Below are positions 14,856-17,324 of a DNA stretch of 40,445 nt, in pieces. Within the stretch, counting starts at the first letter, position 1. Each line of letters starts with the position of its first letter. Made by a program: the position numbers and the translations under genes. The stretch comes from a bacterium (GTDB lineage: Bacteria; Margulisbacteria; Marinamargulisbacteria; JAHFDA01). Where the stretch lies: the NCBI GenBank assembly GCA_023249225.1, contig JAHFDA010000022.1, positions 1-40,445 of the forward strand, in the 5' to 3' direction. The notes under the pieces were generated by a model, which did not search any database, had not been told where the DNA came from, and was given only the letters and a program-made list of their open reading frames with translations.

Positions 14856-15269
14856 ATGAATAAAAAATATTTTGCAGTTATGATTTTAGGGATTGCGGCA
14901 ATGACATTAGGGGCTGTAAGTAGTGGCAATGCTGCGGGGCTTTCAAAGACAGCCAGTAGCGTAACCTCGGTTAAAGTTATAACAACCCGGGCTTATCTTA
15001 AGAACAATTTGGCTACATTCAGTAGCGCGGTAGACACCTTTGGTCGCGGCGATTGTTGTGATAGTGATGGTCGTATAACTGCCGGGGGTTCGAGCTTGAT
15101 AAGTTTTATGGGAGACTATGTTGATAAGGCAGTGACAGCGGGCATTTTAACGGCTGCTCAAGCAGACTCCTTTAAGAGTGCTTTGAGTAATTGTACGATC
15201 ACGGCAGGCGAGTCTTCACTTATCAGTTGGACGGTAGAAACCATTAAAACGGCAGTGTCCAAATATTAA
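14856..15269 (+). CDS. Small exported protein with a duplicated ITAGxSSLIS motif
   Basis: 137 aa. A clear Sec signal peptide: MNKKYF, a hydrophobic core and likely cleavage after SGNAA (about residue 27), giving a mature periplasmic or secreted protein of about 110 residues. ITAGGSSLIS (74-83) is repeated as ITAGESSLIS (115-124), each followed by a helix ending in KAV/TAV. The segment GDCCDSDGRI is rich in Asp and resembles a partial EF-hand or dockerin loop without matching it exactly; the three cysteines (67, 68, 113) could form disulfides. Shine-Dalgarno AAGGGAGAAG precedes the ATG. Function unknown. Confidence 0.7.
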   Translation: MNKKYFAVMILGIAAMTLGAVSSGNAAGLSKTASSVTSVKVITTRAYLKNNLATFSSAVDTFGRGDCCDSDGRITAGGSSLISFMGDYVDKAVTAGILTAAQADSFKSALSNCTITAGESSLISWTVETIKTAVSKY

Positions 15270-15279
15270 CCTTCAAGAA

Positions 15280-15325
15280 TGAAGCATGAAGGTGAAGGCG
15301 GTCGCTGTTTTCCCTTCATGCTTCA
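15280..15325 (+). terminator. Hairpin terminator after the small exported protein
   Basis: tgaagcatgaagg (15280-15292) pairs perfectly with ccttcatgcttca (15313-15325) over a 20-base loop, ten bases after the stop at 15269. A pyrimidine-rich tail follows, rather than a pure T tract. A related gaagcatgaag sequence occurs at 17112, next to the second copy of the tRNA-derived repeat. Confidence 0.55.
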
Positions 15326-15339
15326 GTCTTCATCTTCAA

Positions 15340-15396
15340 TTTTCTATGGTGGACCTGATCGGGATCGAAAGACGCTGCGCTTGGTTCGATCCAAGG
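15340..15396. repeat. tRNA-Ala-derived repeat, left copy (att-like)
   Basis: Bases 15340-15369 are identical to 17242-17271, which is the 3' end of the tRNA-Ala gene plus seven bases beyond it (ttttctatggtggacctg and onward). Bases 15345-15396 are identical over 52 bp to 17181-17232. Inside, ggatcgaa and ttcgatcc form an inverted repeat, so the T-arm sequence appears in both orientations. A tRNA 3'-end duplication is the usual footprint of site-specific integration. Confidence 0.85.
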
Positions 15397-15462
15397 GAGT
15401 TTCAATAGAGGTAGCGGGATGCCAAGTGTGCAATTTTTAAGGCTAGTATGAACAATCCGGGC

Positions 15463-15468
15463 TATAAT
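15463..15468 (+). promoter_or_regulatory. -10 element of the HepT/MntA operon (possibly leaderless)
   Basis: Perfect TATAAT ending 10 bases before the ATG at 15479. A start about seven bases downstream of the -10 would leave a leader of only a few bases and no Shine-Dalgarno, so the mRNA may be leaderless. The -35 region is weak. Confidence 0.45.
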
Positions 15469-15478
15469 TTATGCCAAC

Positions 15479-15886
15479 ATGGTCGACGATATCCGCTGGC
15501 AGCAACGGTTTTCAAATTATAAAAAAGCCTTGATGCAGCTGGCCCAGGCGGTTGAACTAAGCCAAAAGCGTCCGCTTTCAAACCTGGAAGAGCAGGGGCT
15601 TATTCAGGGGTTTGAATATACTTACGAGCTGGCCTGCAATACGCTTAAGGACTACCTGGAGTCCTTGGGCAATACCGGCATCAGGGGCCCCAAGGATGCC
15701 ATTCAACTGGCTTTTAACCGGGGGCTTGTTCGTGATGGAGAAGCCTGGATGGACATGTTTGCCAACCGGAATAAAACCTCACATACCTACGATGAAAAAA
15801 CGGCTGATTCCGTGTCGGCCGCCATTATTGGCAAATTCTACGGTCTCTTTGTTGAATTGCAGAATCAGCTGGAAGCCCTGCTCTAG
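15479..15886 (+). CDS. hepT: HepT-like HEPN toxin, HI0074 family
   Basis: 135 aa, all-helical. It matches the nucleotidyltransferase substrate-binding/HEPN family, with EYTYELACNTLKDYL (46-60), GPKDAIQLAFNRGL (70-83) and the catalytic signature RNKTSHTY (97-104), an exact RX4HXY motif. In studied HepT/MntA systems this motif is the RNase active site, and the Tyr is AMPylated by the partner antitoxin. Twelve bases separate it from the mntA gene. Possible leaderless expression from the TATAAT at 15463. It lies within the tRNA-repeat-bounded segment, consistent with an island-stabilising role. Confidence 0.88.
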   Translation: MVDDIRWQQRFSNYKKALMQLAQAVELSQKRPLSNLEEQGLIQGFEYTYELACNTLKDYLESLGNTGIRGPKDAIQLAFNRGLVRDGEAWMDMFANRNKTSHTYDEKTADSVSAAIIGKFYGLFVELQNQLEALL

Positions 15887-15898
15887 AATTTTGCGCCC

Positions 15899-16216
15899 AT
15901 GCCCTTCGGACTAAAAGATGAAATCGTCGCCAGGATTCATTCTGTTTTTTCGAAATTTCCGGAAATAGAAAAAGCCCTCGTTTATGGATCGCGGGCAAAG
16001 GGGAATTTTAAAAGTGGTTCGGACATTGATCTGACGCTGCTTGGCGCCAACATCGATTTGAAAACGTTAAATCGCATTGAACTGGCCATAGACGAATTAA
16101 TGCTGCCCTGGACTTTTGACATTTCAATTTTCAATCATCTCGATAATCCAGATTTAATCGACCACATCAAGCGGGTGGGGGAGGTGTTTTATGATGCAAA
16201 GCAACTCAAGGCTTAA
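15899..16216 (+). CDS. mntA: MntA-like minimal nucleotidyltransferase antitoxin
   Basis: 105 aa, with the nucleotidyltransferase motif GSRAKGNFKSGSDID: G30-S31, ten residues, then D42 and D44, an exact GSX10DXD. A third acidic residue follows in WTFDISIF. Such proteins neutralise HepT by transferring AMP to its active-site Tyr. The start ATG is 12 bases after the hepT stop. The last 11 bases overlap the 3' end of the convergent amidohydrolase gene. Confidence 0.88.
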   Translation: MPFGLKDEIVARIHSVFSKFPEIEKALVYGSRAKGNFKSGSDIDLTLLGANIDLKTLNRIELAIDELMLPWTFDISIFNHLDNPDLIDHIKRVGEVFYDAKQLKA

Positions 16217-17117
16217 TTTCAATCAATTTTTCCGCATTACGGAAGGCAATTTTTTCAGCCACCGGTAGCGGCAGTTGTCCTAACACGTTCCGATCATAAG
16301 CGACCAGTTCATCCAAATAACCGATCCGGTCAGGCACCCACAAGTCAAAGCCAAGCAAGAAGCGGTCAGGGAACTCAATCAACAGAGCCTTCCACTCGGG
16401 CAAGATGCGTTCGTCATCGTTGCTTAGGGAAAGTTGTTTTTTAGGGTTGTCGCGTAGGATGGGATTGCGGCACGACAGATCAGCGTATAAATTCGGATAC
16501 TTGCGCATGGCCGCAGCCACCAGAGATGCGGGCGCGTCACCGCAGTGAGCCCAGATGATGGTGCTGGAGGGGCTTTGCGCCAGGGCCCGATAAAGTTCAT
16601 CCACATACTCGTGTTCAAAGTGGATGTTTACCGGCACATGATATTTGGCGGCCAGTTGATATATTTTGAGCGCAATCGGGCCATCGGCCGGGTGCCGGGT
16701 TTCGGGTAGTCCTTTTTTAATAAGGGGGGCGTGCCGGAGTGACATTTCTCCAATACCAAACATATGCCCTGTTTTTAACTGGGTCTCAATTTGCGCCAGG
16801 GTGTCTTCAGTGAGCAAGAGTTGATGGGTTTCATGGTCCATCGGGATGTTGACAAACGGAAAGACAAACGCAGGATTGCGGGCTTGTTCCGCCAGAGTCA
16901 ACTGTTCCTGACCAAAAAGAAAAGCGCCCTTGATCCCGGCCCGGCGTTCGGCATCCATCAAATTGGCCTGCGAAGCGCCATCATCGTCTGGAGCCCCGTA
17001 ACCGGAACGATGGCCCATCGGATTCGTCATCCCAGCGCCCATGGGTTTTACATGCGCATGGGCATCAAACAAGGGACCCGTGTAAGACTGGCCAAAGGCT
17101 ATCAGAGGCAGAAGCAT
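16206..17117 (-). CDS. Exported metal-dependent amidohydrolase (amidohydrolase_2 type)
   Basis: A TIM-barrel hydrolase: FDAHAH (HxH metal ligands, residues 20-22), PVNIHFEHE, TIIWAHCGDAP, NLYADLSCRN and RFLLGFDLWVPD, in the order typical of the amidohydrolase-related/COG2159 group. Substrate unknown. From the ATG at 17117 the protein is 303 aa and begins MLLPLIAFGQ, a short hydrophobic export signal. The open frame continues upstream through the repeat and tRNA DNA. Its translation there (KKPQPKRRLF...FTFIFIF) would complete a classical signal peptide, but no ATG, GTG or TTG starts it. The true start is therefore uncertain, and the 5' end may have been altered by the repeat insertion. Confidence 0.78.
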   Translation of the reverse strand: MLLPLIAFGQSYTGPLFDAHAHVKPMGAGMTNPMGHRSGYGAPDDDGASQANLMDAERRAGIKGAFLFGQEQLTLAEQARNPAFVFPFVNIPMDHETHQLLLTEDTLAQIETQLKTGHMFGIGEMSLRHAPLIKKGLPETRHPADGPIALKIYQLAAKYHVPVNIHFEHEYVDELYRALAQSPSSTIIWAHCGDAPASLVAAAMRKYPNLYADLSCRNPILRDNPKKQLSLSNDDERILPEWKALLIEFPDRFLLGFDLWVPDRIGYLDELVAYDRNVLGQLPLPVAEKIAFRNAEKLIEIKP

Positions 17118-17149
17118 GAAGATAAAGATGAAGGTGAAGTGTGAAGGAG

Positions 17150-17170
17150 AAAAAAGCCTGCGCTTGGGCT
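17150..17170 (-). terminator. Weak intrinsic terminator downstream of tRNA-Ala
   Basis: On the minus strand, AGCC and GGCT (17155-17158 with 17167-17170) form a short stem followed by six T residues, a plausible end for the tRNA transcript. The stem is only 4 bp. Confidence 0.35.
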
Positions 17171-17180
17171 GCGGTTTTTT

Positions 17181-17232
17181 TATGGTGGACCTGATCGGGA
17201 TCGAAAGACGCTGCGCTTGGTTCGATCCAAGG
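17181..17232. repeat. tRNA-Ala-derived repeat, right copy
   Basis: 52 bp identical to 15345-15396. It starts with the 25-base tRNA 3'-end segment (tatggtggacctgatcgg and onward) and ends with an inverted T-arm (ggttcgatcc). It lies 16 bases from the genuine tRNA 3' end, so this side carries two tRNA-like ends in tandem. Confidence 0.85.
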
Positions 17233-17248
17233 AAGCTGCAGTTTTCTA

Positions 17249-17324
<76 letters not shown>

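Follow-up and report, generated by a model that had tools for sequence, protein, structure and literature searches.

Does the 3′ end of a tRNA-Ala gene, repeated around a toxin–antitoxin pair, mark a small integrative island, and if so, what process would have placed the genes there? The question arises in the window, i.e., the whole stretch of 40,445 nucleotides that was analysed, which makes up one entire contig (C100) of a draft assembly (121 contigs) of a 2.83-Mb genome. The repeats are short enough for assembly, although misassembly may have occurred. The features that define the locus are the following.

17249..17324, reverse strand: intact tRNA-Ala, anticodon CGC (ARAGORN; Rfam RF00005, 62.5 bits)
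17176..17240, reverse strand: unit copy 1, tRNA-proximal (repeat family D1, own-genome BLAST, boundary analysis, fold)
17183–17205 and 17206–17220: copy of the tRNA 3′ end and 15-bp core of unit copy 1
17221–17228: inverted T-arm half-site of unit copy 1, TTCGATCC
15340..15404, reverse strand: unit copy 2, tRNA-distal (repeat analysis, own-genome BLAST, boundary analysis)
15347–15369, 15370–15384 and 15385–15392: tRNA 3′ end copy, core and inverted T-arm half-site of unit copy 2
15262..15343, no strand given: imperfect palindrome (inverted repeat I1) beyond unit copy 2

The window contains three copies of the tRNA-Ala(CGC) 3′ end, one in the tRNA proper and one in each of two composite units. 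A first-pass annotation had reported a perfect 30-bp direct repeat (15340–15369 and 17242–17271) covering the tRNA-Ala end and adjoining bases; the identity holds over the full 30 bp, and the repeat comprises the 3′ 23 nucleotides of the tRNA plus 7 bp of trailer, so that 7 bp of the tRNA's original trailer are preserved in unit copy 2. The third copy, at 17176–17240, was overlooked by this annotation. Positions 15340–15399 and 17176–17235 are 97% identical across 60 bp (repeat search and own-genome BLAST), and because copy 1 resembles copy 2 far more than the tRNA does, these two segments constitute the true bounding pair. The island is bounded by the two units, not by the tRNA, which stands 66 bp beyond the tRNA-proximal unit. 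The proposal that the repeats bound the genes as attL/attR sites would is thereby retained in part. A core found only at tRNAs, an amidohydrolase without a close counterpart and an Ala(GGC) flank that lacks the block all speak for it, but the pair consists of longer composite units beside an already duplicated tRNA end, rather than of a tRNA and its displaced fragment.

Three genes are enclosed by the units, as the first-pass annotation had described, and Pfam identifies no recombinase among them, also in agreement with that account, nor any phage or conjugation gene inside the block.

15479..15886, forward strand: HEPN-type protein of the HI0074/HepT family (NTase_sub_bind; Pfam PF08780, 147 bits; NCBIfam TIGR01987 above cut-off)
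15899..16216, forward strand: minimal nucleotidyltransferase, MNT/MntA-like (Pfam PF18765 and PF01909)
16206..17117, reverse strand: amidohydrolase (Amidohydro_2; Pfam PF04909), start at 17117

The HEPN protein carries an RX4HXY motif (RNKTSHTY, read from the sequence) and the adjoining nucleotidyltransferase a GSX10DXD motif, in keeping with the definition of a HEPN/MNT pair as an RX4-6H HEPN protein next to a minimal nucleotidyltransferase with GSX10DXD. The former is a probable RNase toxin and the latter its probable antitoxin. Gene order and motifs are those of the HepT/MntA type VII toxin–antitoxin system (PMC7641770), whereas the present pair belongs to the HI0074/HI0073 branch, and the nucleotidyltransferase scores below the cut-off of the NCBIfam MntA equivalog model. 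The amidohydrolase has a hydrophobic, signal peptide-like N-terminus, shows only weak matches and no close counterpart in 68 relatives from the phylum, and is probably a cargo gene.

Read on the tRNA strand, each unit consists of an inverted T-arm half-site (GGATCGAA), a 15-bp core (CCAAGCGCAGCGTCT) and the tRNA 3′ end from T54 (TTCGATCC...CCA). At all four unit-bearing tRNAs, Ala(CGC), Ala(GGC), Gly and Leu, boundary analysis places the start of the duplication at position −23, i.e., T54. The insert, computed from shifts and duplication lengths, amounts to 35 bp at Gly and 36 bp at Ala(CGC), the loci with an intact flank. The T-arm halves vary among the tRNAs and the core is constant. A general rule by which every inverted arm would match its own tRNA specifically was rejected: the assignment is clear for Gly only, the Ala and Leu arms match a small number of other tRNAs equally well, and for the Ala(GGC) arm the best fit is Leu(CAA). 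All five units are predicted to fold alike, with a T-arm stem, an internal loop and a GC-stem triloop hairpin. Such a common fold could indicate that selection maintains the unit as a functional structure in the RNA or DNA of the trailer, acting in processing, termination or as a T-arm antisense element, with the enclosed genes being incidental. We regard this as very improbable, given that units occur at only 4 of the 41 tRNAs in the genome, that Rfam recognizes no known RNA family in them apart from tRNA, and that neither the duplicated trailer nor the second copy 1.8 kb away is assigned a role. Adjoining unit copy 1, the segment 17151–17175 (AAAAAGCCTGCGCTTGG) is 82% similar to the unit core, and could represent either a terminator or the decayed remains of a third unit.

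The genome contains exactly five copies of the core (GAACCNAGCGNAGCGNCTTTCGA), all of them just 3′ of a tRNA: two at Ala(CGC), and one each at Ala(GGC) (C69), Gly(CCC) (C83) and Leu(CAA) (C23). The first-pass annotation had proposed a search for other copies, and had named dispersal beside unrelated genes as an observation that would contradict an island; with the core confined to tRNA ends, and GNA-loop hairpins not in general excess in approximately 250 kb of sequence from the same genome, a dispersed repeat is rejected. Across 84,980 species genomes, the core has six matches, none of them beside a tRNA, a number that chance allows. In a survey run on individually fetched tRNA loci, 7 of 41 tRNAs have their 3′ end repeated within 400 bp downstream, and none has it repeated upstream. 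The 107 tRNAs of three relatives yielded one true 3′ end duplication (Fisher p = 5e-4 relative to 7/41), two other hits having been excluded as neighbouring tRNA genes. Duplications of other kinds than the unit layout are present at tRNA-Thr(GGT) (C18:2688-2760), with a 38-bp copy of the 3′ end at an offset of 186 bp downstream and hairpins in between, and at tRNA-Pro(CGG) (C34:58310-58383), behind which units of 73 bp, each with an acceptor 3′ end and hairpins, are arrayed in tandem.

Direct repeats that begin in the T-loop, cover the 3′ end and run past it are a known mark of tRNA-targeted islands (PMC4383910), and integrase-less islands between repeats of an RNA-gene 3′ end are regarded as cis-mobilizable elements (PMC3146451). 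As in tRNA-targeted islands, the window combines an intact tRNA with a displaced 3′ fragment of equal orientation, while the integrase expected inside such an island is absent. Two 60-bp att-like units around three non-mobility genes, with no genes for integration or transfer, correspond to the description of a CIME. The repeats, the unit anatomy, the restriction to tRNAs, the fixed start base and the cargo are observed; from them we infer site-specific recombination, an enzyme that performs it and present mobility of the block. The reading that we prefer, with a probability of about one half, is that the units were produced by site-specific recombination at tRNA T-loops and probably serve as its recognition sites, and that the block is an integrase-less island, either cis-mobilizable or fossil. 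A recombinase, perhaps since lost, would join the end of an element, consisting of the inverted T-arm and the 15-bp core, to the 3′ end of the tRNA at T54, so that the 3′ end it displaces comes to lie downstream. Like events at Ala, Gly and Leu tRNAs would have left units of identical layout, and the 1.8-kb block with the HEPN/MNT pair and the amidohydrolase would have been inserted, or be excisable, by unit-by-unit recombination with the enzyme supplied in trans. The near-identity of the two 60-bp units, the tRNA-only core, the T54 start at four tRNAs, the toxin–antitoxin genes between the Ala(CGC) units and the type I restriction–modification genes behind the Ala(GGC) and Leu units support this reading. 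Against it count the lack of a phage-type integrase or serine recombinase, restriction–modification islands without a second unit, and the Gly unit, which is bare of cargo. The gene beside the Gly unit, presumably a kinase-like housekeeping gene as read by eye, is undisturbed.

The duplication at Gly also includes 19 bp of trailer, and this too weighs against recombination, since a foreign attP need not carry such a non-tRNA flank. It is one of the observations that favour the main and serious rival, replication template switching at the T-arm hairpin, to which we nevertheless give a clearly smaller chance and which we consider unlikely. By this route, the polymerase would copy the T-arm backwards and resume upstream, producing in one event the tRNA, its trailer, an inverted T-arm and a second 3′ end with trailer; the toxin–antitoxin block would have come later, unrelated to the units or by homologous recombination between them. 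Template switching predicts the duplicated trailer, the inverted T-arm and the duplicated 3′ end, and the duplications at Gly and Val indeed contain 19–26 bp of local, non-tRNA trailer. At tRNA-Val(CAC) (C16:1824-1897), 47 bp of 3′ end and trailer are duplicated in a near-match to the unit layout, and the insert begins with an inverted T-arm-like sequence and contains several hairpins. In a relative of the same class (G014), a 69-bp duplication downstream of tRNA-Ala(TGC) (C68:32221-32293), after which the contig ends, holds a perfect 17-nucleotide inverted T-arm in its insert. The general layout is thus not unique to this genome, though the core is, and the similar structures at these two loci, which have other insert sequences, speak for template switching. 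What it leaves unexplained is the 15-bp core common to Ala, Gly and Leu, as well as the T54 start at all four unit-bearing tRNAs and the near-constant insert of 35–36 bp where the flank is intact.

Further support for the recombination reading comes from the genes behind other units. The Ala(GGC) unit is directly followed by a full type I restriction–modification set (hsdM, YhcG nuclease, hsdS, a DUF4062/HATPase_c_4 protein and hsdR), then by an ORF that we take to be YgjP-like, and beyond it by housekeeping genes, presumably ppdK, dnaG and rpoD as read from the sequence. A second type I set lies behind the Leu unit (YgjP-like gene, hsdR, yhcG, hsdS and hsdM), and no second unit is found at the far end of either island. 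Two of the five N6-methylase loci in the genome are located behind units, and two other hsdM-like loci lie 4–5 kb downstream of the unit-less tRNAs Ser(GGA) (C61:15027-15986) and Arg(TCT) (C87:9038-10009). By hand estimate, the overlap of units with restriction–modification-bearing tRNAs has a chance of ~0.04, and the association is therefore suggestive only. The repeat has the look of a site at which mobile defence genes dock. A bolder, doubtful proposal is that it belongs to an undescribed cassette system on tRNA T-loops, in which a recombinase would recognize head-to-head T-arm half-sites around the core and load toxin–antitoxin and restriction genes. The site would then have the layout TCGAA-AGRCGCTNCGCTNGG-TTCGA, i.e., two half-sites around the 15-bp core, and several tRNAs would be usable because the half-sites come from each target. 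If true, such a system would load these genes behind tRNAs in a little-known phylum.

The nearest genomes compared share only the class with that of the window, and the closest comparison is with the Ala(GGC) locus on C69. Part of the palindrome beyond unit copy 2 (15287–15338) is also found behind the Ala(GGC) unit (52 bp, 88% identical), where unit and flank are present and the toxin–antitoxin block is absent. On sequence comparison, this fits insertion of the block beside a pre-existing unit, but since the Ala(GGC) locus carries restriction–modification cargo of its own, it does not qualify as a clean empty site. Another stretch of the palindrome, the 24 bp at 15274–15297, recurs directly behind tRNA-Lys(TTT) on C52, where it is followed by two small ORFs resembling a DUF4258/DUF2283 pair.

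An integrase using this site, which the first-pass annotation had suggested looking for, did not emerge from the genome-wide search. Neither a phage-type integrase nor a serine recombinase was found in the genome; its tyrosine recombinases, encoded on C80, C57 and C30, are two XerC/D-like proteins and one diverged protein, all far from any unit. The diverged protein (375 aa, C30:20140-20718) is encoded beside a metallo-beta-lactamase-like gene. The dif site of XerC/XerD has an 11-6-11 layout, to which the unit, by visual comparison, presumably bears no resemblance. If the block moves at all, it would do so in trans. Phage records, plasmid records and viral contigs contain no match to the unit, and no element with a matching att site was found in these or in the genome itself. 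The lack of a unit match in those records, together with a block devoid of phage or conjugation genes, counts against the possibility that an ordinary, larger prophage or integrative element at tRNA-Ala lost its integrase and most other genes by deletion, leaving the toxin–antitoxin pair and the amidohydrolase. Such a remnant would show accessory genes enclosed by direct repeats at the 3′ end of a tRNA, as here, and Islander-type islands frequently lose parts (PMC4383910). By itself, however, it explains neither the bare Gly unit nor the tandem arrangement of two units and a tRNA, and we consider it decidedly unlikely.

The kind of island proposed here is already known; unusual is the compound unit common to three tRNA families. 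As in Dehalococcoides ssrA islands without an integration module (PMC3146451), accessory genes lie between 3′ end repeats that occur in tandem, and a recombinase is lacking. Here, in contrast, the repeat is compound, containing an inverted T-arm and a conserved core, it is found at several different tRNAs, and no active recombinase-bearing sister island was found in this genome. Tyrosine integrase islands of the Islander type (PMC4383910) likewise duplicate the 3′ end from the T-loop region and retain an intact tRNA, but here the island integrase is absent, the inserts are as short as 35 bp, and the cargo lies between two displaced copies and not between tRNA and fragment. Acinetobacter plasmid dif modules (e.g., PMC6449649) are comparable as small toxin–antitoxin-bearing modules with short palindrome-like sites, moved by host recombinase in trans, whereas the present units are anchored on chromosomal tRNA genes. 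If confirmed, the unit would represent a new type of att site that varies with the host tRNA around a fixed core, and a route for small defence or toxin–antitoxin modules to settle beside tRNAs without a recombinase of their own. With the core beside a tRNA 3′ end as a search key, new genomes of the lineage can be screened for the missing enzyme.

Elsewhere in the window, an IS200-like REP-associated tyrosine transposase gene is encoded at 1803–2249 on the reverse strand. REP-like palindromes flank this gene within the region 1447–2450, with copies at 1447, 1700 and 2392 and at 1630 and 2298.
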